The position numbers were made by a program, and so were the translations under genes. From an uncultured Lachnospiraceae bacterium (GTDB lineage: Bacteria > Bacillota > Clostridia > Lachnospirales > Lachnospiraceae), in assembly GCA_947566645.1 (NCBI GenBank), contig CANOKL010000011.1, positions 1 to 64,000 of the forward strand: 64,000 nucleotides of DNA, read 5' to 3'. Shown here piece by piece: positions 6,972 through 51,049 of the stretch; the stretch's first letter is position 1; every line of letters begins with the position of its first letter. The notes under the pieces are model-generated. The model was not told the DNA's origin. It saw only the letters and a program-made list of their open reading frames with translations, and ran no database searches.

Positions 6972-6972
6972 T

Positions 6973-8980: not shown

Positions 8981-9003
8981 GACAATAAAGGAGGAGTTAT
9001 AAG

Positions 9004-10095: not shown

Positions 10096-10105
10096 CGCAC
10101 TCATG

Positions 10106-23441: not shown

Positions 23442-23462
23442 GTCGTCTCTCCTTTGTTATAT

Positions 23463-24629: not shown

Positions 24630-24666
24630 ATTCTGCCCCTTTACATCTATGATGACTTTTTTGCAT

Positions 24667-24741
24667 CATGTTCTCACGGAATACCCTCGCTTCGCTGGGG
24701 CAGACCCTGCGCAGCTTACGCGCATTCCTGCCCCGTGAATC
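24667..24741. repeat. Short palindromic repeat (CATGTTCT.ACGGAAT ... CCCGTGAA), left copy
   Basis: Begins CATGTTCTCACGGAAT and ends GCGCATTCCTGCCCCGTGAA. The same ends occur at 27117-27163 with a shorter middle. Together the two copies flank the 24945-27089 gene in the same orientation. Confidence 0.5.
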
Positions 24742-24930
24742 AATGTCATTTAGTTAAGCCAGTACACAGCGTCTGACATGATGTAGTTCTCTTAAAGACC
24801 GTTGGAAAACGCCGGCACTTAGCGAGGTTTTTCACGAGCTTAGTACCGCTGCGTTTGGAACCGAGCGAAAGCGTGTCTGAAAGAGAACTACATCATGTCA
24901 GACGCGTCCGGCTTAACCAAATGACATTGA
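24742..24930. mobile_element. MITE-like long inverted repeat, full copy
   Basis: The ends AATGTCATTTAGTTAAGCC and its complement (one mismatch) extend inward as arms of about 50 bp containing GTCTGACATGATGTAGTTCT and its exact complement. A 10-bp direct repeat CCCGTGAATC lies at both borders (24732-24741 and 24931-24940), as expected for a target duplication. No coding capacity. A shortened copy is at 27259-27378. Confidence 0.75.
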
Positions 24931-24944
24931 CCCGTGAATCGTAA

Positions 24945-27413: not shown

Positions 27414-28847
27414 ATGAAAACCAGAAAAAAACTTACCACCATCATACTAACCCTGTGTGCCTGTGTGACCGCAGGATGCCTTTTTTTATTTACCACATGC
27501 CGTTTCATCAGCTATTCTTCCCTTCCCTGCGCAGAATCCGCCAGGGAACTTCGCAACCCTTATATTGGCTGGTACCAGATCTACAAATACGACCTCTCCG
27601 ACGCCTCTGCCTGTGACCTTACCGGAGTCCAGAACCTGGAGCATGGCGCCGGACTGGCGCTTTTAGAGTTCAATCTTCAAGGCTTCGCCAATGGTCCGGT
27701 CAGCGAATCTGCGCTGAAGCTTCTGGAGCATATCCTGAAAAGCTGGCAGGCAGCCGGAAGACAGCTGATCATACGCTTCCTCTATGACTGGGACGGAAAC
27801 GCCCTGGAAAAAGAGCCCGGAGAACTTACCGTCATCCTTGGGCATATGACACAGACCGCTGAAGTCATAAACCGGTATCCTGACTGCGTCTATATCTTAC
27901 AAGGGCTTTTTATCGGCTCCTGGGGTGAGATGCATGGATCCCGCTATGCCAATACAGATGATATGATGACTCTGGCAGAGCACCTGTATGAGGTCACAGA
28001 CCCTTCCATCTTCCTTGCAGTACGCACTCCGGAGCAGTGGCGTCTCCTTGCAGGCTCTGATGAACCCCTTACCGGGGACTCTGCATACGACGGTTCACTG
28101 GCCTCAAGACTCAGTCTCTTTAATGACGGCATGATGGGCTCTGCCACAGACTTAAATACCTACGCAGAGAATTCCTCCCCTGCCGCCACACCTTACGGAA
28201 TGAGAAACCGCCAGGATGAGCTTGCCTTCCAGAACCTCTTATGTGCTTATGTGCCAAACGGCGGCGAAGCTGTGATTGATAACCCTTATAACGACTTCCC
28301 CACTGCCATTGAAACACTTGCAGATACCCATGTCTCTTACCTGAACGAGACCTACGATCCCGCTGTCCTGGAAAAATGGAAGGCTGCTTCCTATACCGGA
28401 GATGGCCCTTATCATGGAATGAATGGCTTTGACTATATCTCCAGGCACTTAGGATACCGCTATGTCCTGCGCTCCTTAGAATGCCCCGGCATCCTCCCCT
28501 GGGAAAGGGAGGGAAGCGTTACCCTCACCCTGGAAAATACGGGCTTTTCCACCAGCTTCCGTTCCTTTGACTGCTCCCTGATTCTTAAAAATACCCGGAC
28601 CGGCAGGGCACACAGCCTGCCGCTTGCATGTGATACCCGCTTTTTTCTGCCAGGCACACATCTGACACTGAATACAACATTTCATACCCATGAATATTCC
28701 GCGGGAACCTATGATCTGTACCTGAAGATCACGGATCCCGCCACAGATCTGCCGGTTCTTCCTGCCAACGAAGGAACCCTGACCGAAGACGGCCTTCTCA
28801 TCGGAAGTCTAAAGATCAGCATATACCCCTGGGGCAATAGATCCTAG
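27414..28847 (+). CDS. DUF4832/DUF4874-type protein, membrane-anchored
   Basis: 477 residues with an N-terminal membrane or signal segment (LTTIILTLCACVTAGCLFLF). The body has the features of the DUF4874 TIM-barrel plus DUF4832 beta-domain pair: RNPYIGWYQIY, FIGSWGEMHGSRY (a GEMH Glu is a plausible acid), FNDGMMGS, VPNGGEA, HVSYLN and HLGYRYVLR. The fold resembles glycoside hydrolases but no activity is established. It is the only plus-strand gene in the 18.2-64 kb polysaccharide and surface region and overlaps the end of its paralogue by 39 bp, tail to tail. It probably acts outside the cell on a glycan. Confidence 0.8.
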   Translation: MKTRKKLTTIILTLCACVTAGCLFLFTTCRFISYSSLPCAESARELRNPYIGWYQIYKYDLSDASACDLTGVQNLEHGAGLALLEFNLQGFANGPVSESALKLLEHILKSWQAAGRQLIIRFLYDWDGNALEKEPGELTVILGHMTQTAEVINRYPDCVYILQGLFIGSWGEMHGSRYANTDDMMTLAEHLYEVTDPSIFLAVRTPEQWRLLAGSDEPLTGDSAYDGSLASRLSLFNDGMMGSATDLNTYAENSSPAATPYGMRNRQDELAFQNLLCAYVPNGGEAVIDNPYNDFPTAIETLADTHVSYLNETYDPAVLEKWKAASYTGDGPYHGMNGFDYISRHLGYRYVLRSLECPGILPWEREGSVTLTLENTGFSTSFRSFDCSLILKNTRTGRAHSLPLACDTRFFLPGTHLTLNTTFHTHEYSAGTYDLYLKITDPATDLPVLPANEGTLTEDGLLIGSLKISIYPWGNRS

Positions 28848-30182
28848 CAAAACCTGGTCCCCGGCTCCCTTATTTGCAAAGCGAAGGAGCCGGCCGTCCC
28901 TCCTTCTCCTAAGTTCAAGAAGGCATCTGACCCTGTCTGGCTGTCCCTCCCGGGTTCCAGGCAGCACAGCCTCTATCTGCGTCCTTTTTCCGCTTTCCCA
29001 TCTGCGGGCATCAGTATCCACAAGACTCCTGTATGATCTGTCCTGCCCCTCCAGTAAGACAAAGCAGTCCGCCTCTTCTGTAAGGCAGGCAAATCCAAGA
29101 TTTTGCACTGTAATCCGAAGGATCACTCCCAGTCCTTCCGCCCTTTTCTCTCTGGGGGAACACGAAACCGCTTCTACATCCCGGACAACAAACCGGTAGC
29201 CAAGATGGCATCCGATATACTCGTATCCGCTTCGTCCCTCAAAGCATCCGGCCTCTCTGACGATTTCCTTCCTCCAGCTGTCAAGACGCTCCTTGTGGTA
29301 AATACTGTTCAGATAGCTGATATGCATCTTCCTCATAAGCTCTGCTGCCTGCCGGTATCCGTTAAGATAAAGGCCGGACAATGCCTCGCCGCCATTTGGG
29401 GCTGCACCGACATTTTCTTCCTGCCACCTCAGCTCCTCCTCACGTCTCCAGGAATCTGTTCTTCCGGCTTCTCTCTCTGTCAGAGTTCCATACGTCCCCA
29501 GGTCAGTAGGGGAGCCGAACATTCCGTCATTATAAAGTGCAAGCCTTTCTTTCAGGCCGCTCTCCGTAAGGCGGCTCTGTGCCGCCATCCTCCACTGGGC
29601 AGGGGTGCGTACTGCAAGATAGCACCGGCCTTCCGTCGCCCTGTATAATGCATTCAGAAGACTGCATACTGCCTCCTCATCAAGGAATCTGGAATGATGC
29701 ATCTCTCCCCAGCTCCCTACAAGGATCCCCTGTATTACCAGGATATCCTCCGCGAATTCCTTCAGCACTTCTCCAAGCTGCCCGATATGCCGCTTCACCA
29801 GCGAGAGGTCTGACGGCTCCTTTGCGATACCAGCCCCGCTTATATCATAGGCAAATCTCAGAATCATCTGCTTCTTCCTCTCCCGGAAAAATTCCATAAT
29901 CCGGAAGATATGGCTGACCGCCTCCTGTGAAAATTCAGATTCCCTAAATGCCCCGATATCAATCAGTACAAGGGCCAGCTGCTCCTTCTCGCACTCTTCA
30001 TCAAGCCAGGTCTCTTCTGCCACCCGGCATGTGCCCTCCCGGGGCAGTGCCGTAAATGTATAGATATGATACCATCCGCACCCGGGATTAAAAAGCTGAT
30101 CACCCTTTTCCTGGTAATCCGCCTTCTGAAATCCAGCCGCATGTCTAGATCTTATCCGCACTGCGCAGTCCCACCTCCGCAT
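28809..30182 (-). CDS. DUF4832/DUF4874-type protein, paralogue without membrane anchor
   Basis: Up to 457 residues. It shares the landmark motifs of the neighbouring plus-strand paralogue: NPGCGWYHIY, ILVGSWGEMHHSRF, YNDGMFGS, APNGGEA, HISYLN and HLGYRFVVR. The N-terminus overlaps the preceding GT2 gene by 38 bp and shows no signal peptide, so either the true start is later, or a frameshift has separated the original leader (a neighbouring frame offers an ATG at about 30144). Start therefore uncertain. It is the last gene of the Pel-like operon. Function unknown; a glycan-acting enzyme is inferred from fold and context. Confidence 0.7.
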   Translation of the reverse strand: MRRWDCAVRIRSRHAAGFQKADYQEKGDQLFNPGCGWYHIYTFTALPREGTCRVAEETWLDEECEKEQLALVLIDIGAFRESEFSQEAVSHIFRIMEFFRERKKQMILRFAYDISGAGIAKEPSDLSLVKRHIGQLGEVLKEFAEDILVIQGILVGSWGEMHHSRFLDEEAVCSLLNALYRATEGRCYLAVRTPAQWRMAAQSRLTESGLKERLALYNDGMFGSPTDLGTYGTLTEREAGRTDSWRREEELRWQEENVGAAPNGGEALSGLYLNGYRQAAELMRKMHISYLNSIYHKERLDSWRKEIVREAGCFEGRSGYEYIGCHLGYRFVVRDVEAVSCSPREKRAEGLGVILRITVQNLGFACLTEEADCFVLLEGQDRSYRSLVDTDARRWESGKRTQIEAVLPGTREGQPDRVRCLLELRRRRDGRLLRFANKGAGDQVLLGSIAPGVYADL

Positions 30183-30927
30183 CCATCTTAAGAACCTTTA
30201 CTCTGAATAGCACAATCAGAACACTGTACATAACCCGGAGCATATACCAGAAGGGCTTAAGACCTGAATGCATACTCTTTCCTTCCAGTCTTGTATGCAT
30301 CACCGCCGGGATCTCCACCACGCGGAACTTCACAAGCATCATCAGAATAATCATATTTGCATCCGGATATTTATCATCAAAATGATTGTACTTTGAATAA
30401 TACAGGAAAGCCTTCCGGCTCAGCCCCTGCAGTCCGGTGGTTGGATCCGCAATCCGGTTTCCTGTAGTCCTGCGGATCAGGAAGCGGAACATGGAATAGA
30501 CAATCTTTTTCGCCATGGAAACCGGAAAGTCCCCGCTCCCCTCCATAAATCTTGCACCAAGTACAATATCCGGGCACTGCCCGTCCGGTCCTTTTTCCTT
30601 AAGCTTCTCATAGATGACAGGTATATTACACACATCATGCTGCCCGTCCCCGTCCATCTGGATCACATATTGATAGCCTCTGCGGACTGCGTACTTATAT
30701 CCGGTCTGCAGCGCACACCCGTAGCCCATGTTAAATAACTGGGAAATCATGGGATAGTGCATCTCCTTTACAATCCAGTTTGTAGAATCCGTAGAAGCAT
30801 CATTGATCACAAGAATATCCGCATTTTCCTTCATCTCCAGATTCTCAAGCTGGGTCAGTGTCCTGCGTATATTATTCCCCTCATTATAAGCAGGTATAAT
30901 AATTAACACATCCTTTTTCTTCATCAC
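30145..30927 (-). CDS. GT2 glycosyltransferase, dolichol-phosphate-mannose-synthase-like
   Basis: 260 residues. VLIIIPAYNEGNNIRRTLTQ, VINDASTDSTN, FNMGYGCALQTGYKYA and QMDGDGQHD are the standard signature of DPM1/DPG synthase-like enzymes, which charge polyprenyl phosphate with one sugar. TTGLQGLSRKAFLYYSKY and the basic C-terminus also fit. No C-terminal membrane pair, so it is peripheral. It overlaps the following DUF4832 gene and lies 45 bp after the GT4 gene. It could supply a lipid-linked sugar to the membrane proteins of the Pel-like operon. Confidence 0.88.
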   Translation of the reverse strand: MMKKKDVLIIIPAYNEGNNIRRTLTQLENLEMKENADILVINDASTDSTNWIVKEMHYPMISQLFNMGYGCALQTGYKYAVRRGYQYVIQMDGDGQHDVCNIPVIYEKLKEKGPDGQCPDIVLGARFMEGSGDFPVSMAKKIVYSMFRFLIRRTTGNRIADPTTGLQGLSRKAFLYYSKYNHFDDKYPDANMIILMMLVKFRVVEIPAVMHTRLEGKSMHSGLKPFWYMLRVMYSVLIVLFRVKVLKMDAEVGLRSADKI

Positions 30928-30971
30928 CGTACCTCCTGGTATTACTAGTACAGCATTGCATTAAGGCTGTA

Positions 30972-32198
30972 CTATATCAATTCGTTGTCAAGGAGCTCAT
31001 ACAGCTTTCCAAGCTCTTCCTCCTGCGATACTGCCTTTTGTGCAGCTGCCATGCCAAGTCTCTTTCTCTTTTCCTCATCTCCAAGGAGCTCCCTGATACT
31101 GTCCGCAATTGCTTCCGGCTTAAGCTCACACAGGATTCCATCCCGGCCTGTCTCAATCTGCTCCCTGTTTCCGTTGCAGTCTGAGGCAATCACCGCGCAC
31201 TCCAGGGTCTGGGCCTCCTGGATCGCAATACTTTTTCCCTCAAACCTGGTGGCATGGATATACAGATCCGCCTGCGCATAATAGGGGTAAGGATTCGTAA
31301 CCGCTCCCAGAAGCACAAAGTCCTCGGAAAGCCCAAGCGCGGCAATCTTCTTTTCCAGCATCCTCCGCTGGTCCCCGTCCCCAAGTACATACCACCTGGC
31401 CTGAATGCCTGCATCTTTCAAAAGCTTCATTGCATCTATGGCAATATCATACGCCTTCTGATAAGTAAGCCTTCCCACTGTCAGAAGGCGCATCCCTTCA
31501 TAATTATCCCGGAAACCTCCCGGCTCCCCCGCGCGCCTGCGGATTCCTTCCTGGTCAATCAGGTTATGGAAAATATCTGTCCTGGCCTCATACTCAGGAT
31601 ACACCTTCAGGAAATGAGTTCTCACTTCATCTGACACGGTGAAGATCCGGTCAAATTTCCCAAAACATCCCCGGTCCATCCTCCGTGTATACCCTGCGCT
31701 CTCATAGTCAATATGTATAAATGCACATTTTCTCTTTGCCTGCACATGCTCAGCCACATAGTAGGCAGAGGCCCCCTCCAGATATGCCACTGCCAGGTCA
31801 AAGGTCACCGGAAAACGCTGCGCGCCGTCTGAGAGCATTCTCCACAAGAGCTTATCCGTCTGAACCTTTCCGCTTTGCCTCATTTCCGAAAAATTCGTGG
31901 AGATGCCCCGAAGCTTCCTCGAAAATTCTCCATTTCTCAAAAAGCTTAAGAGCACTGCTTTTGCCATATCGCCCTTTCCCTTTCCGGACAGAACCGGTCT
32001 GCTGCTAAAGTTCTGGTTCAGGAGTTTTACATGGGAAGGCAGCTCTCCAATCATCTCTCCCTGCCCCATAATCACATAAAGAAATAATTGATATTCTCTC
32101 GCATCAAGCCGCCTTAAGAGCTCCAGAAGCGCTGTCTCTGCACCGGCGCGTCCCAGTGTATTAACTACGAATAATATCTTTTTTCTCTTCTTTTTCAT
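30972..32198 (-). CDS. GT4 family glycosyltransferase
   Basis: 408 residues from the ATG at 32198, which follows GGAGGGC and continues as MKKKRKKILFVVNTLGRAGA. GT-B fold: RAGAETALLELLRRL at the N-terminus, LTVGRLTYQKAYDIAIDAMK and HATRFEGKSIAIQEAQTLE (the EX7E region) in the donor half, then SDCNGNREQI. It overlaps the end of the DUF2304-like gene by 38 bp, so translation is coupled. Not a usual member of the core pel locus; in this operon it may decorate the polymer or make a primer. Confidence 0.88.
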   Translation of the reverse strand: MKKKRKKILFVVNTLGRAGAETALLELLRRLDAREYQLFLYVIMGQGEMIGELPSHVKLLNQNFSSRPVLSGKGKGDMAKAVLLSFLRNGEFSRKLRGISTNFSEMRQSGKVQTDKLLWRMLSDGAQRFPVTFDLAVAYLEGASAYYVAEHVQAKRKCAFIHIDYESAGYTRRMDRGCFGKFDRIFTVSDEVRTHFLKVYPEYEARTDIFHNLIDQEGIRRRAGEPGGFRDNYEGMRLLTVGRLTYQKAYDIAIDAMKLLKDAGIQARWYVLGDGDQRRMLEKKIAALGLSEDFVLLGAVTNPYPYYAQADLYIHATRFEGKSIAIQEAQTLECAVIASDCNGNREQIETGRDGILCELKPEAIADSIRELLGDEEKRKRLGMAAAQKAVSQEEELGKLYELLDNELI

Positions 32199-32574
32199 CA
32201 CTGCCCTCCACGATACTGGAAATCCTCTCAAGCTCATTCATCAGCCGTTCGTTTTCCTGGTTCAGCATGGATACCTGCATCGCCATCTCCCGCGTCTTTA
32301 ACAGAAGCTGGGAAATCATGACACTATTTCGAAATTCTTCGAACAAAAAGATCGCTCCCACACAGGCAAACGCAAGCCCCGTACCGGATGCAAGGCGCTT
32401 TGTCCACTCAGAAAATACAGGGACACACCCTATTAAAATCAGCACAATTCCCAGAAGCTCCCAGATCACTGTATAATTGACCGTAATCTTCTTGTAGGAA
32501 TGCATCAGAAAGCTGACCACCATAAGCACAAGCCCTGCAGCCGCAATTCCCAGTTTTACAACTAAACTACCCAT
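32161..32574 (-). CDS. DUF2304-like small membrane protein
   Basis: 137 residues from the ATG at 32574, preceded by GAGGAG. Three hydrophobic segments in the first 95 residues, then a coiled coil (KTREMAMQVSMLNQENERLM) and an acidic/basic tail. This arrangement matches DUF2304 proteins that occur next to GT2 and GT4 genes in glycan clusters, where they are thought to assist a glycosyltransferase at the membrane. Its first codons overlap the end of the PelG-like gene and its end overlaps the GT4 gene. Confidence 0.75.
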   Translation of the reverse strand: MGSLVVKLGIAAAGLVLMVVSFLMHSYKKITVNYTVIWELLGIVLILIGCVPVFSEWTKRLASGTGLAFACVGAIFLFEEFRNSVMISQLLLKTREMAMQVSMLNQENERLMNELERISSIVEGSDEKEEKKDIIRS

Positions 32575-34039
32575 CCTGTCTCTCCTCGCTTCCAATTTTT
32601 TCTGTTCTATCGTAAACCTTTCCCGGCGGCTGCGTGCCTGCTCCAGGCTTCAGGATTGAGCCCTCACAGAAAATATGCACATCCAGCCGTCTCTCCATAT
32701 ATCTCAGCCGGAAATAAGCAACCGTAAAACCCGAGAAAGCACCCAGCACAACCCCCAGTCCGTACCACAGCTCCGGCAGACGGGACGCCAGGATACTGCC
32801 CAGGAGTGTTACAAGACAAAAGGTTACTGATGTAAGCGTAGCCCCTGTCAGGTCATTAAAGTAATATAAGAATATGATTTCCGAATACATCAGAAATACA
32901 ATAAAATACCCTGCCACCAGGCATGGATAAATCCTGAGTGTAAGGTTCGAAAATCCAAGCCTTAAAAGTATTGCAGTACAGATCAGATATACCACTGAGG
33001 TGATAATGAACTGCACCCTCACAAGGCTCATAAGCTCACTGGAGAGCTGCCGGAACATCTCTGTCCTGGCAATGTCAATATCCGCCCCCCGCCCGCCGAT
33101 CACAGATTCTGAATAGTTTTTATATTTATCATGAAAATACATCTCGACCCGTGCAATAAAGATGACAGTTGCCGAGATATTGGTAAACATGGCAAGACAG
33201 GTTGCCATGTCATAAGGCTGGTTGCACACAAAGGTTTTCACAAGCACCATCCGCATATCCGTGGTCCAGAATACAAAATTATGAATATAAAGCCCCAGGA
33301 TATAGCAGAAGTTTGCCACCACCAGCTGCCAGTATTTCTTAAAATATCTGAGTACTGACCGATACCGGTTGCTGTTCTTTGTAAAATACCGTTTTACAAT
33401 GGCAATCTCCAGAAATGCAATCAGATAAAAGCCCGTCATCAGCGCAAACAGCATACTCTCCCTGATTCCCCACTTCATAACATACCGGAGGAACAGTGAA
33501 AAGAAAAACGCCCACACCATGCCAATGGAATAAAACAGAGAGATTCTCTGATAATCCTTTGCAATCGAGAGATACACCATAGAGTAAAATACAAGTACAA
33601 GCGCAATATAGCCGCAATATCCGGTGAACACATAAAACACATCCACCTTTCCCACGAAATGCTCCCACAGACAGAAGGGAATCCCCAGAAGACTGCTTAA
33701 GGACAGATTCATCAGCATTCCCAGATAATAGCATGGCCTGATATCCTGATAGCGTTCCTCAAAGATTACATCTGACATATATTTTGACAGGACTGAATTA
33801 AACGGGGCGCATGTAAGCAGTGCAAAGATGAAGATATATAGCACTGTACAGGAAAACAGCTCCCTCTCAATTACCCCGAGGCTGCTGAACTTCAGGAAAT
33901 GTCCCATGAGCATAATATTTATAATGATTACAAACATAGGAGTCACCGTGGACATGGAACTGTATCCAAATCCAATGAGATACGTTGTAACCGTACTTTT
34001 TTCAAAGATCTTACTTAGTTTTTCACCTATCCCGGACAT
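32567..34039 (-). CDS. pelG: PelG-like polysaccharide transporter
   Basis: 490 residues, polytopic with about 12 membrane segments and no ATPase, MOP/Wzx-like. The N-terminus (IGFGYSSMSTVTPMFVIIIN) and the LYIHNFVFWTTDMR and MATCLAMFTNISATVIFIAR segments are characteristic of PelG, the presumed inner-membrane exporter of Pel polysaccharide that works with PelD, PelE and PelF. The ATG at 34039 starts five bases after the PelF stop; the upstream in-frame TTG is less likely. Order pelF-pelG matches both P. aeruginosa and Bacillus cereus loci. Confidence 0.85.
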   Translation of the reverse strand: MSGIGEKLSKIFEKSTVTTYLIGFGYSSMSTVTPMFVIIINIMLMGHFLKFSSLGVIERELFSCTVLYIFIFALLTCAPFNSVLSKYMSDVIFEERYQDIRPCYYLGMLMNLSLSSLLGIPFCLWEHFVGKVDVFYVFTGYCGYIALVLVFYSMVYLSIAKDYQRISLFYSIGMVWAFFFSLFLRYVMKWGIRESMLFALMTGFYLIAFLEIAIVKRYFTKNSNRYRSVLRYFKKYWQLVVANFCYILGLYIHNFVFWTTDMRMVLVKTFVCNQPYDMATCLAMFTNISATVIFIARVEMYFHDKYKNYSESVIGGRGADIDIARTEMFRQLSSELMSLVRVQFIITSVVYLICTAILLRLGFSNLTLRIYPCLVAGYFIVFLMYSEIIFLYYFNDLTGATLTSVTFCLVTLLGSILASRLPELWYGLGVVLGAFSGFTVAYFRLRYMERRLDVHIFCEGSILKPGAGTQPPGKVYDRTEKIGSEERQDG

Positions 34040-34043
34040 CAAT

Positions 34044-35474
34044 CTAGTCCTCCCATTCAATCTTCATGCTGTCTGCAAAATCCTTATAGATCTTCCGGTA
34101 GGTCTCCCGCATGTGCTGGATCTTATACCGGAACATCACTCTTTTATACCCGCTCTCTCCCATGGCAAGACGCATAGGCTCATTTCTTGCCAGATCCACC
34201 ATAGCCTGTGCAATCTCCTCCACATTCATAATATGGGTGATGATCCCTGCCGGGCCGAAATCATCCGTTTCGCCGTACACCAGCCCTTTGCAGTTTCCCA
34301 CATCCGTGGCGATTACCGGCTTGTGAGCCGCATAGCCCTCCAGGATGGTCAGCGGCTGTCCTTCACTTAAGCTGGTCAGAATCGTCATGTCCATTCTTCC
34401 AAGATAATCCCGGATATCAATCCTCCCGGTAAAGACAACATCCTGGACCCCCAGTGCCTCCACCTGTTCGAAGCACTCACGGGCATACCCTTCATCTTCA
34501 TCCATGGGGCCCATAATCCAGAGCTTCAGTCTCGGCTCCCTCTCCTTGGCAAAGGCAAATGCCTGGATCATCGTCTTCACGTCCTTAATGGGCGTAACCC
34601 TTAAGACAGCGCCGATATTCACCATGCCCTCATCCTCTTCGGTCTTCCCAGGGATATCCGCAAGACGCTCTGTGGCAACTCCATTGGGTGTTACCATCGT
34701 CTTCTGGACCGGACAGCCAAGCTCAATCTGAAGCTCCCGCGCGTATTCATACAGGCTGGTAACCAGATCTGCCTTGTCATAAGCCAGCAGGGACATTTTC
34801 TTAAACTGCTCAATCCAGATATTCTTATACACCCCCTGTACCCAGTCGGCTCTTAAGAGTTCCTCCTCCCGTTCCCTCGTGTAGATTCCATGCTCAGAGA
34901 TCAGAAGCCGGCTTCCATAAAGAACCTTTGCCATGCTGCCAAGCACCCCGGCATATCCCGTAGCAACGCAGTGATACAGATCCGCCCTGGGCAGCTTCAT
35001 CTTCAGGGCAAAAAACAAAGGCAGATACACGGAACGCATGGTCCACAAAAAATCAGAGAACACAAGCTGGCTGTAATTCTGATCATAATATTCTCTTACA
35101 ATATTTAGAAAATCCTCTCCCATCAGAAGCTTATCCAGGGAAACCGACTTCTCCTGGAACAGGCGGAACACTGTCTCCCACTCCACACGGCGGTTTCTCA
35201 CAAGGCTGCGCAGCGCATGGTGCTCTTTCTTATTCAGCTTCAGGCTGCGCCATCCCTTCCGGTTCCAGTCAACATCCTCCAGATACAGCTCATGTACCTC
35301 CGAAACGTTCTCTGGCAGCTCATAAGTAAACTTCCCGCTCATGGAACGGTTGCTGATAATCGTCAGAATCACAAATTCCAGTTTCGGAAAAGACTGTATC
35401 ATTCCATGCACCCAGCTGGATACACCTCCTGCAACATATGGATAACATCCTTCTACTACTATACAGACCTTCAC
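34044..35474 (-). CDS. pelF: PelF-like GT4 glycosyltransferase
   Basis: 476 residues from a GTG with a perfect AAAGGAGGAG site. CIVVEGCYPYVAGGVSSWVH is the hallmark N-terminus of PelF, the GT4 enzyme that polymerises Pel from UDP-sugars (UDP-GalNAc preferred in Pseudomonas). Also visible: HGIYTREREEELL, IGAVLRVTPIKDVKTMIQAF and SLSEGQPLTILEGYAAHKPV (EX7E region), then TDVGNCKGLVYGE. It is cytosolic and should dock on the PelD/PelE/PelG complex. Sugar type in this organism cannot be predicted; the fused epimerase-like domain of PelD is not catalytic by sequence. Confidence 0.9.
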   Translation of the reverse strand: MKVCIVVEGCYPYVAGGVSSWVHGMIQSFPKLEFVILTIISNRSMSGKFTYELPENVSEVHELYLEDVDWNRKGWRSLKLNKKEHHALRSLVRNRRVEWETVFRLFQEKSVSLDKLLMGEDFLNIVREYYDQNYSQLVFSDFLWTMRSVYLPLFFALKMKLPRADLYHCVATGYAGVLGSMAKVLYGSRLLISEHGIYTREREEELLRADWVQGVYKNIWIEQFKKMSLLAYDKADLVTSLYEYARELQIELGCPVQKTMVTPNGVATERLADIPGKTEEDEGMVNIGAVLRVTPIKDVKTMIQAFAFAKEREPRLKLWIMGPMDEDEGYARECFEQVEALGVQDVVFTGRIDIRDYLGRMDMTILTSLSEGQPLTILEGYAAHKPVIATDVGNCKGLVYGETDDFGPAGIITHIMNVEEIAQAMVDLARNEPMRLAMGESGYKRVMFRYKIQHMRETYRKIYKDFADSMKIEWED

Positions 35475-35522
35475 TTGCCTCCTCCTTTCAGAGTAACTGC
35501 CGCGCAATTACCTTTCAGGGAC

Positions 35523-37406
35523 TCAATAATAAAATCTCTCATCCCCGGGCTTCAGCCTGATCTCAATCTCACTTTTCCTTGCCTCAATCAGACAGACGCC
35601 CTCTTCCAGCTCCCGGAAGTCTCCGCCCTTAACCTCTTTGATCTCATTTCCATAATTTCTGAACAAAAACCACGACGTGCCCTCTGCCCCTTCTATTTTC
35701 AGATAAATCGTATCCCCCTTCTGGCTGTCTGTGTAATCAAGCGCCAGTAAATTCCGGATACGGGCATCGCTCTCCGTCGCCGCCACACCGTCAAAGCCCT
35801 CAAAACTCTGTCCGAAGACATTCACATTTCTGATAAATTGTTTGTGGCACTCATCCCATGTATCCTCCTCATTCTCAGGATACGCCACGCGCTCCATATC
35901 ACAGGAAAGATTCAGATATCCCAGCGCTGTCTCCACACTCCGTACCCGGAAATCACTCCTGTAGGAATACTTAAGCCCGTCGCTGACTGCGCGCTGGACT
36001 GTGATATAATCTGACAAGTATCTGATCAGGCTTACATCCTTCTCATCGTAATCCATAAGCACTGTTCTGACTGAGGACAGGAATTCCCCCTCCAGAACCT
36101 CTTCCGTCTCAGCCTCCTTCATGTCTCCTGCATAAAATGAAGAAAACCTGTAATCCGGCGCATGCTCCTGCATAAATCTCTCATCCTCGGAAATCTTCTC
36201 TCCGACAGTGGTATCTGACACGCTAAGCCCGGTCAGTCCAGGCTCTGCCGACCTCTCGTGGAAGATCTTCAGATAATACTGGAACTGCTCTGCATCCGGA
36301 AGATTCTGATCCGAATAATCATACTGGGGAGTCATCATACAGGAAATTCCAAATGAATAATCCCGGAGCGCGGATGTAATATCAGGCCATACAAGCTCCT
36401 GATCTAAGAGCTTCATAGAACGTGCATAATACTTCTCCATCTCGTCTCTGTTCTCATCCGCTGTACCCGGATAATTTGCCAGGACCAGATTCTGGGCATT
36501 CACGACCGGATAGAGCTCGTAAGGATACATCTCCGCCGACATAGCGGACAAAAGGCCAAGCCCTGTAATCCCCTCCATATAGTCACCGTTCACTGCGAAC
36601 ACATAGGCGGAGCCAAAGCTTTTCCGCCAGATCACAACCGGATAGTCCTCCTTTTCCACGCTCTCATCTGCCGGGATTCCCTTCATATATACCTTTGTAC
36701 CCGAAGACAGGCTGTACCATGGAAAGGTTAGATCCATATCCTGATATTTTTCCTCTTCCTTCTCCTCTGCCTTATAGATCACCTCTCCGCCCAGTAAAAA
36801 GCCTCCGTACAGATGGATTCCCTCTACCGTAGTCTCGGATGCAGAGATCCGGCGTATGCCAAGAAGCTCTCTGACTGCTTTATTTCGTCTGACAACTGAT
36901 ACATCCGGAAGACCAGAAAGCACAAGATGTGTCCCCTTGTCCACACATTGCATGAGAAAGTCCGTCTCTTCCTTCTCTCCCCATTTCACACAGTCCGGAT
37001 TCAGCACCAGCATCTCTGGAAGCTCTGCCTGCACCTGTTCCTCCCTGTACGCAGAAAGGCACTTATAAATAGATATATCCCGCTTTGTATAAGAAACCCA
37101 TTCGCGGACTGTCTCTGCCAGACTCTTTCCTCCCGAGCTGATACACACTACCTTGTTACGCCTGGAGGACTCCCGGCTCTCTTTCCCAGTACCGCCCTCT
37201 TTCTGTTCTGCTGTATGCTCTTCCTCTTTCACACCATCCGGCACATACATGCTGACCTTCGAAGGATAATCCTCTGCTGTCTCCGTAATAAATGGATTTG
37301 CCTCATACTCATTCCATCTGTCCTTCAGATTATTCATAAACATACAGAGGAAAAAAATTACAAACATCAAAGTACTGATTGTGAAAAAATTCCGGCGTGA
37401 TATCAT
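35523..37406 (-). CDS. DUF2194-like membrane-anchored protein of the Pel-like operon
   Basis: 627 residues: an N-terminal membrane anchor (FFTISTLMFVIFFLCMFM), a charged linker to about residue 85, then a large extracellular domain of the DUF2194 type. Landmarks are GSAYVFAVNGDYMEGITGLG, YPVVNAQNLVLANYPGTADE and a C-terminal beta-rich part. The order of genes (pelD, pelE, this region, pelF, pelG) puts it where Gram-positive pel loci carry the deacetylase PelA-DA, so it may be its counterpart. The segment LANYPG lacks the acidic pair expected of a metal-dependent deacetylase, so enzyme activity is doubtful. That link is inference. Confidence 0.6.
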   Translation of the reverse strand: MISRRNFFTISTLMFVIFFLCMFMNNLKDRWNEYEANPFITETAEDYPSKVSMYVPDGVKEEEHTAEQKEGGTGKESRESSRRNKVVCISSGGKSLAETVREWVSYTKRDISIYKCLSAYREEQVQAELPEMLVLNPDCVKWGEKEETDFLMQCVDKGTHLVLSGLPDVSVVRRNKAVRELLGIRRISASETTVEGIHLYGGFLLGGEVIYKAEEKEEEKYQDMDLTFPWYSLSSGTKVYMKGIPADESVEKEDYPVVIWRKSFGSAYVFAVNGDYMEGITGLGLLSAMSAEMYPYELYPVVNAQNLVLANYPGTADENRDEMEKYYARSMKLLDQELVWPDITSALRDYSFGISCMMTPQYDYSDQNLPDAEQFQYYLKIFHERSAEPGLTGLSVSDTTVGEKISEDERFMQEHAPDYRFSSFYAGDMKEAETEEVLEGEFLSSVRTVLMDYDEKDVSLIRYLSDYITVQRAVSDGLKYSYRSDFRVRSVETALGYLNLSCDMERVAYPENEEDTWDECHKQFIRNVNVFGQSFEGFDGVAATESDARIRNLLALDYTDSQKGDTIYLKIEGAEGTSWFLFRNYGNEIKEVKGGDFRELEEGVCLIEARKSEIEIRLKPGDERFYY

Positions 37407-37422
37407 GTTATCCTCTCCTCAT

Positions 37423-39822
37423 CTATTCCTCTCCATTAAATCCGTAATCAATCGCAAAATTATACAGGCTGTATCCATTCTGTTTCACACGATAGCAGAC
37501 AAAACGATCTGTTTCATAGTAAGTCTCCATCTCATTGGGATACAGTTCTTTGAACTTCTGCGCCCAGTAATACATATGAGACATGGTAACGTAGCGGTCA
37601 TCCCCGATATAGGGCAGAATTCCCGGCTGCTCTGACACCGGCTGCCGCGCGCCCTCCAGTGATACCTTCTTCACAGCCTCTTCTGTATTAATATAATCCC
37701 GGTACAGCAAGGGGATCTTTTCTATAAAAAAATACACTGTGGAGGTAGGAATCGTAATATCCGTATCCTCATCAAGGGAACGCATATCCTTCAGAAATTT
37801 AATGATCTCATAGTGATAGCCAAGGTCATAATCTCCCAGCATCTGGCGCTCATCATTTGCGGAGCAGATAGTAAATGCTTCCTCCTTATTTTCCCGTACT
37901 ATATTGCTCAGGCAAGTCATCGCTTCATTTGTCTCATAGGGGCTCACGCACACAGGAGCTCTTGTTCCCGTCATGACCGTCAAAACACAGGCCCCGGCAA
38001 GTGCTGCAAAGGAACAGACATTACGTGCCTTCTCCCATTTAAACAGGACGAATATCACCCCGTCCACGCAGAGACTCCATACCACCGGAATCCCGTACCC
38101 GATATAGACAGAATAGCGGGAAACCTCCAGAAGCTGCATAAGCCCCAGTTCAGCCGATGCCTGGAGCACCGCCATGGCCGCCATATAGATACTAAATGAA
38201 AGCAGCACGCCTCCATAATCCGCCCTCCGGAAGATGCACCAGAAAATTCCAAGCAAAAACAAAGCCACGATACTTCCCAGCATAAATTCTGCGGTCTTCA
38301 TATCCGTTGACACATAGTAGTCAAGACGGTCCAGCACGGCCTCCTTCACACCCATCTGCCCTTTCTTCTCACCGGCGTTTCCGTCATCTGCCGGCTTCTG
38401 CGTCTGTGAACCGGACTTCCATTGGGCCAGCCCCCAGTTCAGGGAAGCCTGCATCGGCGTTCCGGTGACAAATGCTGCCGCCATCGGAAGCACAGCAAGC
38501 AGAATCCCCGCAATACCCGCTGCCACAATCCGCTTAAAATACCGCCACCGGAATACACGGAAGCAGAATCCTGCCCCAATCGCAAGACAGAGCAGACCGG
38601 CTATGATCGTATCGTAAAAATGCACGGAAAGCGTAAGGGATACACTAATGGCAAATAATACCAGGTTCCCTCTCCTGCATAATCTCTGAAATACTCTGCC
38701 GGCTGTGGCTTTCGCCTTGTCTACTGCTCTCTTCCACCGGCCTTTTCCTGCACTCCCCGTATTTTCCGTAACATCTTCACCCTCTGTACCAGCCACATGG
38801 TCTGTATCCGCCACATGATCTATATCTGCTATATGACCCATATCAGCTTTATGATCTGTATCCGCTACATGATCTATATCTGCTACATGACCTGTATCAG
38901 CTTTATGATCTGCAGCAGTCAGGGCTATCCCTTTCTCCTGCAGAAATGCAAAGGCAAAATAAGCCGCCGGCAGGATAAAGGCCATGCCAAACTCCTGGGG
39001 AAGGGTTGCATGGTACCTGATATAGGTATATTCATAAAATCTATTTGAAACAATATAGATAAAAATCCCGATATATGGGGCATACTTCGACTTGCACACA
39101 CTGCGCAGGAATGCCAGAAGCACCAGATGGATCACAACCGTCTGCACAAGGTAAAAGAGTCTGAGAAGCACATAGGTATGGAACCCGAACACTGCATGCA
39201 GATAATAAAGCAGGCAGTGAAGACCAAAGGGATAGACACCGTCTGCAAAGATATTTCCATTCCCCATTTCATTAATCCAGTAATTGTGAAGTACAATATC
39301 AGAAGCGCAATAGCCGTAGACATTGACTGCATTGGTCCCATACATATAAAGAAGCAGCACAAGAAGACCAGACACCAGCAGGATCTCCAGTCCGTGATTT
39401 TTCCGGTATTCCCTGCACTTTTTCCCGGCTGAAGCAGAAAAGCGCCTGAGACTTCTTCCGAGTTTAAGAAGCAGTGTCTTTCTCCCCATCTCACCGCCCA
39501 GAATCAGCAGCAGCCTCCACAGCTTTTCTTCCGTCTGACGGCCCAGTGAGTCCCTGTACCTTTTCCAGGCAGCCAGAAGAAACGGGGCAAGCGTGCCCAG
39601 AATCAGTGTAAACCGAAAGGATATATGTAAAAGCTGCAGCAGGTATACCAGGTTAATAATATAAAAATGTCCGATTAAAAAATATGCCATGAACCTTGCA
39701 GGCGCACTGCCAAAGCCCGAAAGCCTCTTATGCAGAAAAAGCCATGGCAGCAAAAGTGTCACGCCAAAATATGCCGCTGTGATTCCTATAAGCTGTAATA
39801 CCGTAAGCATTGACATTGACAT
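37423..39822 (-). CDS. Large polytopic membrane protein of the Pel-like operon
   Basis: 799 residues from the ATG at 39822, which follows AAGGGGG. About 13 hydrophobic segments in two blocks, separated by a soluble stretch around residues 300-370 that includes seven hexapeptide repeats of the D/G-H-x-A-D-x type. The C-terminal 170 residues are outside or inside as a soluble tail. Topology and the YASDIVLHNYWINEMGNGNI-like loop after the fourth helix recall GT-C glycosyltransferases and polysaccharide polymerases, but no catalytic motif is certain. It is not in the canonical pel set, so it may be a lineage-specific part. Confidence 0.7.
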   Translation of the reverse strand: MSMSMLTVLQLIGITAAYFGVTLLLPWLFLHKRLSGFGSAPARFMAYFLIGHFYIINLVYLLQLLHISFRFTLILGTLAPFLLAAWKRYRDSLGRQTEEKLWRLLLILGGEMGRKTLLLKLGRSLRRFSASAGKKCREYRKNHGLEILLVSGLLVLLLYMYGTNAVNVYGYCASDIVLHNYWINEMGNGNIFADGVYPFGLHCLLYYLHAVFGFHTYVLLRLFYLVQTVVIHLVLLAFLRSVCKSKYAPYIGIFIYIVSNRFYEYTYIRYHATLPQEFGMAFILPAAYFAFAFLQEKGIALTAADHKADTGHVADIDHVADTDHKADMGHIADIDHVADTDHVAGTEGEDVTENTGSAGKGRWKRAVDKAKATAGRVFQRLCRRGNLVLFAISVSLTLSVHFYDTIIAGLLCLAIGAGFCFRVFRWRYFKRIVAAGIAGILLAVLPMAAAFVTGTPMQASLNWGLAQWKSGSQTQKPADDGNAGEKKGQMGVKEAVLDRLDYYVSTDMKTAEFMLGSIVALFLLGIFWCIFRRADYGGVLLSFSIYMAAMAVLQASAELGLMQLLEVSRYSVYIGYGIPVVWSLCVDGVIFVLFKWEKARNVCSFAALAGACVLTVMTGTRAPVCVSPYETNEAMTCLSNIVRENKEEAFTICSANDERQMLGDYDLGYHYEIIKFLKDMRSLDEDTDITIPTSTVYFFIEKIPLLYRDYINTEEAVKKVSLEGARQPVSEQPGILPYIGDDRYVTMSHMYYWAQKFKELYPNEMETYYETDRFVCYRVKQNGYSLYNFAIDYGFNGEE
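38785..38910 (-). repeat. 18-bp tandem repeat coding for His/Asp hexapeptides
   Basis: Seven consecutive 18-bp units code DHKADT, GHVADI, DHVADT, DHKADM, GHIADI, DHVADT and DHVAGT. Units 1-3 and 4-6 form two 54-bp higher-order repeats. It lies in a soluble loop of the large membrane protein and is likely to vary in copy number. Confidence 0.9.
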
Positions 39823-39871
39823 GGTTAATAGCCCCCTTATGTAATCAGTTCCGCAAGTTAACAAGTCTTTT

Positions 39872-40837
39872 CTATGAACTAAAAATACGAATCAGTTCCA
39901 GCGTCTCATTGTCAATCAATACATCTGACCTTTTCAGAGTCTCCAGGGTCTCAAAGAACTTTTCCCTGTTCTGTTCCGCAAAGTAGAGCTTCATCCTGCA
40001 GGTATAGGAAGCCAGTTCCTCCGGGTACTGCTCCTTCATACGGAGGCACCATTTTCCAGTACTTTCGTAGTCCTTCATCTCCAGCAGCCTCAGACAGACC
40101 GCCTCATATCTCACATCTGTAAGCTTAGAAGCATCCTTACCATACAGAAGCTCTGCCGTCTCTTCCATGATCATCACAAATTTTCTCTGTTCATGCTCTG
40201 AAAAGATACGCTGTCTCAGAATATGATCCATATAATCAATCAGCATCTCCTCACATTCCGTCTGCGAGTCGTCCTCTTCCTCAATCTGCTTCCTCAGCTT
40301 CTGTACATAGAGCCGGAATTTGTTCAGCTCATCTGACAAAACCGCAGCCGCATAATGAGAGGTCTCCGAGTCCTCGCTGTCTAGTGCAAGCGTAATGGAT
40401 GCAAGGGAATCCCCGATATCCTGCCGCATCACATTCATAAGAACAGAACGGAGATTCTTCTTTTCATTTACCAGAATCGCTTCTTCCAGAGGAATGATAT
40501 CCCGTTCTGCCTCTTCGTCCGCCTTCTGGTTAGTCTTTACACGGTCCTTACTAAAAACAACATCAGCCAGGTTCGCATCACGCCAGAACACAAACAGATA
40601 AAACAGATGTCCCATCAGAAAAAACAGCGGGACAATCATCGGGCAGAGTACCATTACAATAAACCGGATCACATAGGCTCTCCTGTTATCATACAGAGCC
40701 TCCTCCTTATCCTGATCAGAGGCCAGGGCATGCGCCGGCACAATTACAAAGATCCCTGCCAGCAGATAAATGACTGACACGATCAGATTCACGGCAATCA
40801 CCAACAGAAACAGAACCTCGTCCCGTGCCATACTCAT
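39872..40837 (-). CDS. pelE: PelE-like membrane/TPR scaffold protein
   Basis: 321 residues. Two membrane regions (about 7-36 and 52-85) precede a cytosolic helical domain. RSVLMNVMRQDIGDSLASIT followed by DSETSHYAAAVLSDEL is the sequence I would expect of the PelE family, which links PelD to the PelF synthase through TPR-like repeats. The rest is helical pairs of TPR size. It overlaps the PelD-like gene by 4 bp (ATGA), so the two are translationally coupled. No enzyme motif. Confidence 0.8.
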   Translation of the reverse strand: MSMARDEVLFLLVIAVNLIVSVIYLLAGIFVIVPAHALASDQDKEEALYDNRRAYVIRFIVMVLCPMIVPLFFLMGHLFYLFVFWRDANLADVVFSKDRVKTNQKADEEAERDIIPLEEAILVNEKKNLRSVLMNVMRQDIGDSLASITLALDSEDSETSHYAAAVLSDELNKFRLYVQKLRKQIEEEDDSQTECEEMLIDYMDHILRQRIFSEHEQRKFVMIMEETAELLYGKDASKLTDVRYEAVCLRLLEMKDYESTGKWCLRMKEQYPEELASYTCRMKLYFAEQNREKFFETLETLKRSDVLIDNETLELIRIFSS

Positions 40838-43029
40838 AATACCGCCTCCTCATCAATCCGGCACTCATAGCCAAGATTCCTGAAGCGTTCGATAATACCA
40901 CCCACATTCTGCTTATTCGTATTGGACAAAAGGGCATAGAGCTTTCCCTTCTTAAAGATCCCCAGATAATCCGTCTGCCGGATCGTACTGCCAAGCGCTT
41001 TTGCCACCTGTTCATAATTCTTTTCCTTTGTGAGAACTTCTAATAATACATATTCCGTAAGCCCTTTATCCTTTGCATCGAAAAAGGCCTTCGCCAGCTG
41101 GGTAAATGCCTCCTCGCCAAGAACACTTGTCCCCTCTACATACCGCTGATTCCTGAGCGCCTCAAGATAACGGTTAGCACGTACAACCGCATTCTGTATC
41201 AGATAACCTACAATAGTAAGCCGGTTCGCCTCTCCAAGCGTCATGCGCTCCCACGGAACGCCCCAGAGCATCAGAATCAGCTGCATATCATCCTCTGAAT
41301 AGACGGAACTTGCCATCATGGGCATATTCTCCACCATATCCCGGTTTATGTACACACGGCGTTCCCTGATCTCGTTATACATGTCCTCCATATCCGTATA
41401 TTTTATGGAATACCCAAGTCTGCGCGCCTCTGGAGAAGTAGCGGAAAAAAGTCTCGCATAATCCCCATTAGCAACGTTATATACTGCCACATCCCTGCAG
41501 TCCATAAGCCTTGACAGCACCTGGGCCGCATAGAACAGTACTTCCTCCGGTCCGTACTGTTCAAGAGTCGAGGATACCTCATAGATCTTCCCAAGGCTCT
41601 CCTTATGATTAACTACCTGGGACTCAAAATTATGCTTCATCTTAACATTGCTGTCATTAATCTCTTCAATATCCTTAAGCTGTCCGTTCAGATACTTTGC
41701 CCTGCTGTTCCCCTCATTTCTGATAAAGCTCACCTGGTCCTTCAGATACCCTACAACCAGTCCGACTATAAATAGCTGCGCCATCCACACATAGGTATTA
41801 TAATCAAGCAGCACATCAAACCCGCTGTGACTTCCCATCTCATAATAGCAGTATCCCACAACCGAGAGCAGGCCGGAAAACACAGCCTGCTGCTGCCCGT
41901 GCACCACTGCAAACAGCAGTACATACAGCAGATAAATATCAAGCTTTGCCAGAAACTCACTGTCTCCCGCTATGCGGTTCAGCCAGGAGGCAAGGAAAAA
42001 GCACGCCAGAGCCTCTACAAAGGGAAATGCAGCCTTAACAATCCTCCTAAGAAGGTTCCACAGCCTGACTGCCAGCCCGCCGCCTGTATCCTCCTCTGTG
42101 ATAAAGGAATTGCTGTGCCGCTTCATATAATGGACAACCTGCCGCACTCCCCTCTCATAATCATTGAACAGATCATAGGGAAACTCAGCCTTATATCTGC
42201 TGCTGTCCAGAACAATCCGGTTATTCAGGCCTGCCGTACTGTCAGATACCGTAACCCCGGCACCCATCTCCTCCTTCACCTGCTCCGCAAGCTTCAGCTC
42301 ATCAATCGCAGCCTCTGAAGAAATATTATAGACAGAATGCCATGGTTTCCCCTCGCACATCACTCTGTAAGCCAGCTCTACGGCATCATTAATGTAAATC
42401 ATGGAAAAAACATTCTTACCGTTCGCCGAAATCCTTCCAGTCTTCAGCGCCTCCAGGCACATCCTGAAACAGGCATGCTCCTCTGTCTTTCCCTTCTGGG
42501 GCACCCAGTACATATTGTCAAAACGCAGAACCAGTGTATCCACTCCCTGGGTCCTGCGGTAATTTTCACACGTCTCCTCGCCCTGTGCCAGAGCCAGCGC
42601 CCGGAATCCTCTTGGGGACAGAGGTTCATCCTCCGGCACATTGTCAATATGTACTCCTCCGTATACTTCCTGGGAAGAAAAATATACGAACTTCCCACTT
42701 CCGGACATGCTAAAAGCAGACAGAATATTCACAAGCCCTGTCGTATAACGCACGGCCTCCTGTCTTGCCTCTGTCTCCCAGTTAAAGTTCGTGTCATATG
42801 CACCCATAAACACAACAACATCCGGTCTTATACTTTCAAAAATATCCTTGATGCTTCCGCTGTCATATGGGAAATTATACTTTTCAAATACCTTCTTATA
42901 AGAAAAGCGATTGTCTCTCTGCCCCGTCAGCAGATATACGCGGTGACCATTCTTGCTTAACTTGCTAATCATCTGATCCATCAGCACGCTTCCGCCGCCA
43001 ATCAATAATACAACCATCATTTTCACCAT
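40834..43029 (-). CDS. pelD: SDR-PelD fusion: c-di-GMP receptor of the Pel-like operon
   Basis: 731 residues. 1-310: extended short-chain dehydrogenase/epimerase fold (LLIGGGSVLMDQMI, FSSQEVYGG, then PRGFRALALAQGEE where active enzymes have YxxxK, so Tyr is Phe-142 and Lys is Ala-146). 330-430: four membrane helices. 435-475: coil. About 480-610: GAF-like. 615-731: degenerate GGDEF domain in which the active site reads FKKGKLY while an RxxD I-site is kept (R684-Q-T-D687). In PelD this site binds c-di-GMP and switches on Pel synthesis. First gene of the operon. The start codon is uncertain (ATG at 43029 or 43020), as ribosome sites are weak. Confidence 0.85.
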   Translation of the reverse strand: MVKMMVVLLIGGGSVLMDQMISKLSKNGHRVYLLTGQRDNRFSYKKVFEKYNFPYDSGSIKDIFESIRPDVVVFMGAYDTNFNWETEARQEAVRYTTGLVNILSAFSMSGSGKFVYFSSQEVYGGVHIDNVPEDEPLSPRGFRALALAQGEETCENYRRTQGVDTLVLRFDNMYWVPQKGKTEEHACFRMCLEALKTGRISANGKNVFSMIYINDAVELAYRVMCEGKPWHSVYNISSEAAIDELKLAEQVKEEMGAGVTVSDSTAGLNNRIVLDSSRYKAEFPYDLFNDYERGVRQVVHYMKRHSNSFITEEDTGGGLAVRLWNLLRRIVKAAFPFVEALACFFLASWLNRIAGDSEFLAKLDIYLLYVLLFAVVHGQQQAVFSGLLSVVGYCYYEMGSHSGFDVLLDYNTYVWMAQLFIVGLVVGYLKDQVSFIRNEGNSRAKYLNGQLKDIEEINDSNVKMKHNFESQVVNHKESLGKIYEVSSTLEQYGPEEVLFYAAQVLSRLMDCRDVAVYNVANGDYARLFSATSPEARRLGYSIKYTDMEDMYNEIRERRVYINRDMVENMPMMASSVYSEDDMQLILMLWGVPWERMTLGEANRLTIVGYLIQNAVVRANRYLEALRNQRYVEGTSVLGEEAFTQLAKAFFDAKDKGLTEYVLLEVLTKEKNYEQVAKALGSTIRQTDYLGIFKKGKLYALLSNTNKQNVGGIIERFRNLGYECRIDEEAVL

Positions 43030-50521: not shown

Positions 50522-51049
50522 CTATTTTGTAATCTTGATGGTTACTGTCTTCTTTTTGCCTGTTCCGTCTGTTGCCATTGCAGTAATCTTCACTCTTTTG
50601 CCCTTGCCTGCTTTTAAGGCTTTTACTTTTCCGCTGCTGGTTACAGTCGCGTATTTCTTATTGCTGCTGGTCCATTTCAGCTTCTTGTTCGCATTCTTTG
50701 TTGCTTTCACCTTGCCTGTCAGCTTCAGGGTCTTGCCTGCCTTTACTGTCTTCTTTCCAGAGATGGTTACTTTTGTTACTTTGCCCTTCATAGATTTGAT
50801 CTTATAAGTTGCTTTCACTTTGCTTCCATCTTTTGCCGTTGCAGTAATGGTTACAGATCTGCCGCCGGACTTCTTCTTCATGGTAACAACACCCTTGCTG
50901 GTTACTGTTGCAACCTTCTTATTGCTGGATTTCCATGTCACTGCTTTGTTGGAAGCGTTGGACGGGGAAACCTTTGCAGTAAGTTTTACTTTCTTTCCTG
51001 CTGCAATTTTCTTAGAAAGGCCGGAGATGCTGATCTTCTTTACCTTTAC
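50522..51049 (-). repeat. Lys-rich Big_2 tail module, copy A
   Basis: The last 175 codons of the 2387-residue protein are the same as those of the gene at 59631 at all but 7 positions. Two Ig-like Big_2 repeats are seen (SNKKVATV and SNKKYATV landmarks). The module is followed by the same palindrome in both genes. Confidence 0.85.

Follow-up and report, generated by a model that had tools for sequence, protein, structure and literature searches.

We analysed a stretch of 64,000 nucleotides from an uncultured Lachnospiraceae bacterium (GenBank assembly GCA_947566645.1, contig CANOKL010000011.1, positions 1 to 64,000 of the forward strand; hereafter the window). It carries a Gram-positive pel operon of ten genes, all on the minus strand, running from 43029 to 28809. 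In this operon the homologue of the deacetylase PelADA has lost its catalytic residues, and genes for a predicted glycosylation module, comprising a GT-C fold glycosyltransferase, a GT2 glycosyltransferase and a DUF2304 protein, are present. In the reading we favour, with a probability of about 0.55, this is a pel-family synthase operon whose exported polymer was formerly modified by deacetylation and is now modified by glycosylation. The core operon, the fusion of an SDR domain to PelD and the DUF4832 hydrolase are already known. Apparently new are the GT-C/GT2/DUF2304 module in a pel operon and, linked to it, a deacetylase without its active site, neither of which turned up in the openly licensed literature searched; relatives may be among the Roseburia clusters that S7 Fig. 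of PMC7112168 presents.

Gram-positive pelDEADAFG operons were described in bacilli, clostridia, streptococci and actinobacteria by Whitfield et al. (PMC7112168). The window operon follows the PelD-PelE-PelADA-PelF-PelG order of Bacillus cereus ATCC 10987 and the clostridial and streptococcal variants (PMC7112168, PMC12345266), and has in common with Gram-positive pel operons a PelD fused to a degenerate SDR domain, a predicted RxxD I-site and a DUF4832 gene. Unlike these operons, it has lost the PelADA catalytic residues, lacks the CotH, VTC and DUF4956 genes, and adds GT-C, DUF2304, a second GT4, GT2 and a second DUF4832 gene. PelF, the GT4 polymerase (34044..35507), scores 377 bits against NF038011 (E 1e-112, cut-off 100). 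PelG, an exporter of the MOP superfamily (32567..34060), scores 474 bits against PF16933 over its full length (E 8e-142, cut-off 29). By these curated sequence models the family identity of both is unambiguous. An earlier note on this DNA, made without database searches, had proposed a Pel-like operon of a Gram-positive gut bacterium with ten overlapping or closely spaced minus-strand genes between 28809 and 43029. Both proposals hold: all ten open reading frames (ORFs) lie at those positions, with intergenic spacing from -77 to +44 bp, and PelF and PelG are far above their cut-offs. The ten genes do form an operon as proposed, and it is of the Gram-positive pel kind, with an SDR-PelD fusion, a PelE-like protein, PelADA, PelF and PelG.

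The PelADA homologue (35523..37406, minus strand) is a CBM114/CE26-type pseudo-deacetylase of the DUF2194 family (PF09960, 59 bits). The earlier note had given it the correct family label and listed it among the added parts; we reject an accessory role, since in the known pelDEADAFG core this is the place of PelADA, and the protein aligns with intact PelADA with an hhalign probability of 99.9% across 449 columns. B. cereus PelADA (PDB 9zau), the founding member of CE26 and CBM114, acts as a de-N-acetylase, and Pel requires its catalytic residues; a predicted binding to PelG and a carbohydrate-binding domain have been reported for it (PMC13254593). The window protein resembles it in operon position and in its N-terminal transmembrane helix, and is homologous to it over the carbohydrate-binding, catalytic (CE) and C-terminal domains. 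Active-site positions were set by the B. cereus protein (E 5e-110 to the group of intact PelADA proteins). In contrast to that enzyme, the window protein has A310 and N311 at D262 and D263, T392 and V396 at H350 and H354, A473 at R458, D503 at H488 and R506 at D491. The CE26 catalytic set (D-D, H-x3-H, R, H-x-D-D) is absent, every residue being replaced, and there are short deletions around the HxxxH and HPDD motifs. This lost active site, the most unusual feature of the operon, was not remarked on in the earlier note, nor was the identity of the DUF2194 protein as PelADA, the SDR domain on PelD, the GT-C nature of the 813-amino-acid protein or a convergent DUF4832 gene.

The distribution of the loss was followed in a survey of 299 Lachnospiraceae genomes, each from a different genus. 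PelG was found in 53 of them, and 50 of the 53 PelG loci were retrieved; loci from the window's genus, from genome contigs and at class level were added. Of the 50 family loci, 27 carry GT-C, 21 do not and two are truncated or fragmentary. PelADA residues were counted in loci with a full-length protein, 41 with GT-C and 27 without. The D-D-H-H set occurs in 0 of the 41 loci with GT-C versus 25 of the 27 without it (Fisher p 1e-16, the loci not being phylogenetically independent). Each of the residues D262, D263, H350, H354, R458, H488 and D491 is kept in 25 or 26 of the 27 loci without GT-C, and the whole set is never found in the 41 others. In loci without GT-C, conservation of the protein is highest in the CE domain (48% versus 32-33% in the flanks); in GT-C loci it is lowest there (31% versus 33-35%). 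Neither group conserves the mapped carbohydrate-binding residues of the B. cereus protein in this alignment.

The catalytically dead PelADA has nevertheless been retained. It keeps its full length (550-657 amino acids) and is under purifying selection, with dN/dS of 0.10-0.19 in the pairs that could be computed, several dS values being close to saturation. The EX7E motif of PelF (E382/E390 in the window) is intact in 43 of 43 GT-C loci and in all 32 others, and the predicted I-site of PelD for cyclic di-GMP (c-di-GMP), R684xxD687 in the window, is kept as RxxD in 40 of 40 GT-C loci. A search of 33 GT-C genomes with a profile of intact PelADA found no second active copy: all matches were weak (at most 84 bits), and many consisted of two stretches of one gene that bypass much of the catalytic core. 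Because the protein is kept at full length under selection, the PelF and PelD motifs are intact and no second active copy was found, the sequences indicate that catalytic function was lost selectively while the operon itself was kept.

The 813-amino-acid membrane protein encoded between PelE and PelADA (37423..39864, minus strand; start probably near residue 15) had no match in Pfam or among PDB sequences. Since sequence alone gave no family, fold prediction was needed. An AlphaFold2 model built on a 13-sequence alignment reached pLDDT 74 and pTM 0.71, and its top Foldseek matches were STT3/OST, DPY19, PglB and AftA. VIA-align gave Z values of about 20 for OST/STT3, 18 for Pmt4, 17.8 for ArnT, 17 for DPY19, 16.7 for PglB, 15.9 for AftA and 14.4 for AftD. 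Nearly all of the top-scoring solved structures are GT-C transferases of lipid-linked sugars, and on the evidence of the model the protein has a GT-C fold. Residues D189, H193, W196, H216, R283 and E291 are conserved; from the fold class, the D189 region would form the extracytoplasmic active-site loop. Within the gene an in-frame tandem repeat of 18/36/54 bp lies at 38783-38912 (residues about 314-400, a low-confidence part of the model). It gives a His/Asp-rich stretch that is missing or variable in relatives.

Three further genes accompany GT-C. The DPM-like GT2 (30145..30927, minus strand; PF00535), a predicted polyprenyl-phosphate sugar synthase, carries a conserved D92-x-D94 motif and matches the dolichyl-phosphate mannose synthase-type structure DPMS 5mlz with E 3e-12. 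Its top NCBIfam match is PpgS, with a score of 79.6 bits against a cut-off of 370. The small DUF2304 protein (32161..32595, minus strand; PF10066, 36.7 bits, cut-off 25.5) has three transmembrane segments, resembles the GT2 partners GacJ and WpsB and is the sole copy in the genome. A second GT4 (30972..32237, minus strand; PF00534, E 1e-33) is retained in most GT-C loci and could elongate the lipid-linked sugar or work on the polymer inside the cell. The family labels DUF2304, GT4, GT2 and DUF4832 that had been read from the letters were all borne out by profile search.

By sequence and fold model, GT-C, GT2 and DUF2304 match the layout of GacI/GacJ/GacL-type transmembrane glycosylation. DUF2304 is the GacJ family (PMC8327497), and GacJ and WpsB activate GacI and WpsA, respectively (PMC8327497, PMC10821137). 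WpsA and its activator WpsB produce GlcNAc-P-C55 (PMC10821137), and GacI-type systems end in a GT-C enzyme with the sugar delivered outside (PMC8035078). The window has in common with the GacI/GacJ/GacK/GacL and WpsA/WpsB systems the DPM-like GT2, the DUF2304 partner and the transferase of GT-C fold (PMC8035078, PMC10821137, PMC8327497). Unlike them, it has the set inside a pel operon, no Pfam model covers the family of its GT-C, the genome has no GtrA and the operon no dedicated Wzx. A further parallel is mycobacterial PpgS (Rv3631) with Rv3632 and Rv3779, which act in the transfer of galactosamine onto arabinogalactan (PMC3485146): the window GT2 is nearest to PpgS in NCBIfam, and both systems have a small membrane partner, a polyprenyl-phosphate sugar donor, predicted for the window, and a separate membrane transferase. 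The acceptor differs, and the window GT2 stays below the PpgS equivalog cut-off.

The surveyed loci fall into two types. In the first, CotH, VTC and DUF4956 come after PelD-E-A-F-G, as a check of L050 showed, often with DUF4832; this accessory set of CotH, polyphosphate polymerase, DUF4956 and DUF4832 had been reported (PMC7112168), and the CotH/VTC/DUF4956 module is not at the window locus. The second, to which the window belongs, has GT-C, DUF2304, GT4, GT2 and one or two DUF4832 genes. The earlier note had made its reading depend on conserved co-occurrence of the ten genes, and they do recur together: the exact order D-E-GTC-A-F-G-DUF2304-GT4-GT2-DUF4832, plus a convergent DUF4832 gene, is found in 13 loci including the window, and close variants in most other GT-C loci. 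This recurrence is far beyond chance. GT-C follows DUF4832 in L039, L060, L053, L038, L043, L035 and L095-L097, and a basal group (L074, L076, L080, L135) has the order DUF2304-D-E-GTC-GT2-A-F-G. The three module genes stay grouped in pel loci despite this rearrangement. One locus, L046, is a hybrid with both the CotH/VTC/DUF4956 and the GT-C set. Beyond the family, one GT-C pel locus was found at class level (G483, locus L135), G351 holds weak GT-C homologues that are not in a pel locus, and a sparse phylum sample yielded no GT-C. In a tree of PelF and PelG, all GT-C loci fall into a single clade with support 100/100, together with L037, whose contig is truncated; L147 is its weakly placed sister (85/66).

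The module might decorate another acceptor, such as a teichoic acid, a wall polysaccharide or a surface protein, and merely share a transcript with pel. We consider this improbable. Homologous systems do work on rhamnan, teichoic acids and lipoteichoic acid (PMC8035078), and a GTC-GT2-DUF2304-GTC block occurs outside pel loci in L136, a locus from another family, which argues for a stand-alone module. Within the 43-locus clade, however, GT-C lies inside the pel cluster wherever the contig covers it, in several arrangements and often between PelE and PelADA, and the module tracks the catalytic loss of PelADA. The polysaccharide locus around the L136 block (5714-10891) also encodes a PelF-like DUF3492 GT4 and a deacetylase of the CE4 type; PelG is missing there, and no pel genes besides the PelF-like GT4 were found.

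In the switch from deacetylation to glycosylation that we favour, PelF would polymerise an aminosugar chain and PelG would export it, with PelD conveying control by c-di-GMP. Outside the cell, PelADA would be a non-catalytic, carbohydrate-binding companion of the exporter. GT2 and DUF2304 would make a polyprenyl-phosphate sugar inside, possibly extended by the second GT4; after flipping, GT-C would move the sugar onto the emerging polymer, and the DUF4832 proteins would hydrolyse or trim it. Conceivably, dead PelADA holds the chain for GT-C. We infer the sugar identities, the flippase, the transfer onto the Pel chain and the non-deacetylated product; it is gene linkage that suggests the acceptor polymer of GT-C. 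In B. cereus, Pel is lost when PelADA is catalytically dead; the product here should therefore be either a Pel-type polymer that is not deacetylated and carries glycosyl side chains, or some other polymer.

The earlier note had spoken of a modified or lipid-primed polymer. Modification by way of a lipid carrier is plausible; priming is less likely than side-chain decoration after export. We regard it as quite unlikely that the Pel chain is primed or anchored by the lipid-linked sugar, with GT-C as ligase. The lactococcal GlcNAc-P-C55, which starts an oligosaccharide whose final transfer is made by a GT-C enzyme (PMC10821137), offers a precedent, but sibling pel loci have the same PelDEFG set without these genes, and nothing specific to priming was found.

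Several observations weigh against the favoured switch to glycosylation. Since all GT-C loci form one clade, the association of dead PelADA with GT-C counts as a single evolutionary switch, retained ever since, and not as a series of independent events. Two loci without detected GT-C, L138 and L147, have a degenerate PelADA; their contigs end near the locus and their genomes gave no GT-C match, so that PelADA loss may precede, or be independent of, GT-C. In a few GT-C loci (L104, L046), GT2 or DUF2304 was not detected. The genome lacks a GtrA family protein and the operon a dedicated flippase, a Wzx elsewhere not having been searched for. Finally, five other Polysacc_deac_1 / CE4-type deacetylases of the source genome could act in trans. 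The product might then be ordinary, partially deacetylated Pel, another deacetylase having replaced PelADA activity. This has a small probability, as none of the five lies in the locus, no active CE26-type copy was found in the 33 genomes searched, and a dedicated enzyme is required in B. cereus and Pseudomonas aeruginosa (PMC13254593, PMC10269871).

A doubtful alternative, which we rate no higher than decoration of another acceptor, is a polymer unrelated to Pel: PelF of this clade would use another sugar nucleotide, so that an N-acetylgalactosamine deacetylase became useless and was lost. Whitfield et al. raised such a possibility for Roseburia, whose pel genes sit in larger capsule- or teichoic-type clusters (PMC7112168). 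Moreover, a GT2-polysaccharide pyruvyl transferase fusion and an FrhB/F420-dehydrogenase-like protein are encoded after the window operon, together with an ABC transporter (21732-27089, minus strand). Pyruvyl transferase or FrhB relatives also lie downstream in the sibling loci L034, L093, L096, L097, L100 and L101, so the polymer locus may extend further. Against an unrelated polymer, PelF is far above its equivalog cut-off and has its invariant residues in common with deacetylating loci.

P. aeruginosa PelA D528A gives no extracellular Pel (PMC10269871), and the failure to detect Pel with a catalytically dead deacetylase in this species and in B. cereus has been read as a requirement or checkpoint of deacetylation for synthesis. 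Here a dead PelADA is kept under selection over dozens of gut genera, which makes the need of deacetylation for Pel export, and its replacement, directly testable. Tentatively, at slightly less than even odds, we propose that Pel export and deacetylation have become uncoupled in a large clade of Lachnospiraceae pel systems, the former deacetylase now being a non-catalytic companion of the exporter and a GacI/J/L-type module yielding a neutral or branched, side-chain-glycosylated polymer instead of a cationic one. This predicts a new gut matrix polymer of altered charge and points to its decorating enzymes.

PelD (40834..43029, minus strand) consists of an N-terminal SDR/epimerase-like domain, membrane segments and a GAF/degenerate GGDEF region. 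The N-terminus matches Pfam Epimerase (7e-18) and, in a PDB sequence search, UDP-glucose 4-epimerase structures; only this SDR part was matched. The catalytic Y-x3-K is missing and the SDR motifs are degenerate, as already reported for PelD fusions of clostridia and streptococci (PMC7112168). GGDEF homology is weak at the level of sequence (3ign, E 0.17), and binding of c-di-GMP by PelD is predicted; the source genome encodes six GGDEF proteins. In four PelD fusions from outside the Lachnospiraceae (L138, L142, L146, L148), GGYGFIGS-like and Y-x3-K-like motifs are retained in the SDR domain, and the epimerase part of these fusions may have stayed active; in L142 no PelADA was detected. The PelE-like gene (39872..40837, minus strand) lies directly 3' of PelD in nearly all surveyed loci. 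Its product, estimated to have two transmembrane helices followed by a helical cytoplasmic region, has no significant match in PDB sequences or Pfam.

The last gene of the operon (28809..30182, minus strand) encodes a glycoside-hydrolase-like DUF4874+DUF4832 protein (PF16173 and PF16116), in which D113, E160, D219 and E266 are invariant across 73 homologues and for which nothing significant was found among PDB sequences. It is a homologue of the family of Streptococcus intermedius SIR_1591, itself an active glycoside hydrolase that disperses Pel aggregates (PMC12345266). The earlier note knew of no description of the accessory set, but a DUF4832 accessory gene had already been described (PMC7112168, PMC12345266). 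A second, convergent DUF4874+DUF4832 gene (27414..28847, plus strand) encodes a protein 30% identical to the first and has the same placement in at least 13 loci.

An 18-bp intrinsic-terminator-like stem (43192-43153, minus strand) lies between the upstream gene and pelD, and no comparable stem was found within the operon. With the stem only upstream and short gaps or overlaps inside, one transcript across the ten genes is likely. An Rfam scan of the window gave no RNA above gathering cut-offs, c-di-GMP riboswitches included. The source genome is near Schaedlerella: a 97% identical locus is found in a Lachnospiraceae isolate (L098), and the GT-C proteins of Schaedlerella arabinosiphila and relatives share 60-67% identity with that of the window. 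Cultured strains with the operon include Schaedlerella arabinosiphila DSM 106076 (L101) and Lacrimispora saccharolytica An861 (L108). Elsewhere, L134 has D-E-GTC-PelADA with PelF truncated to 144 amino acids, and its genome gave no PelG match in the search at class level; this pel operon appears to be broken. In L064, L065 and L068, PelADA is duplicated, and PelG and the next, CotH-sized protein form a single ORF of 1086-1091 amino acids. Upstream of the window operon lie two adjacent Eco57I-type DNA methylase/restriction genes (45481-50312, minus strand; 610 and 1000 amino acids), located in a stretch of lower GC content (about 36%), and a gene for a secreted-looking multidomain protein of 2387 amino acids with DUF5695, F5/8C, Big and FIVAR domains (50522-57685, minus strand).

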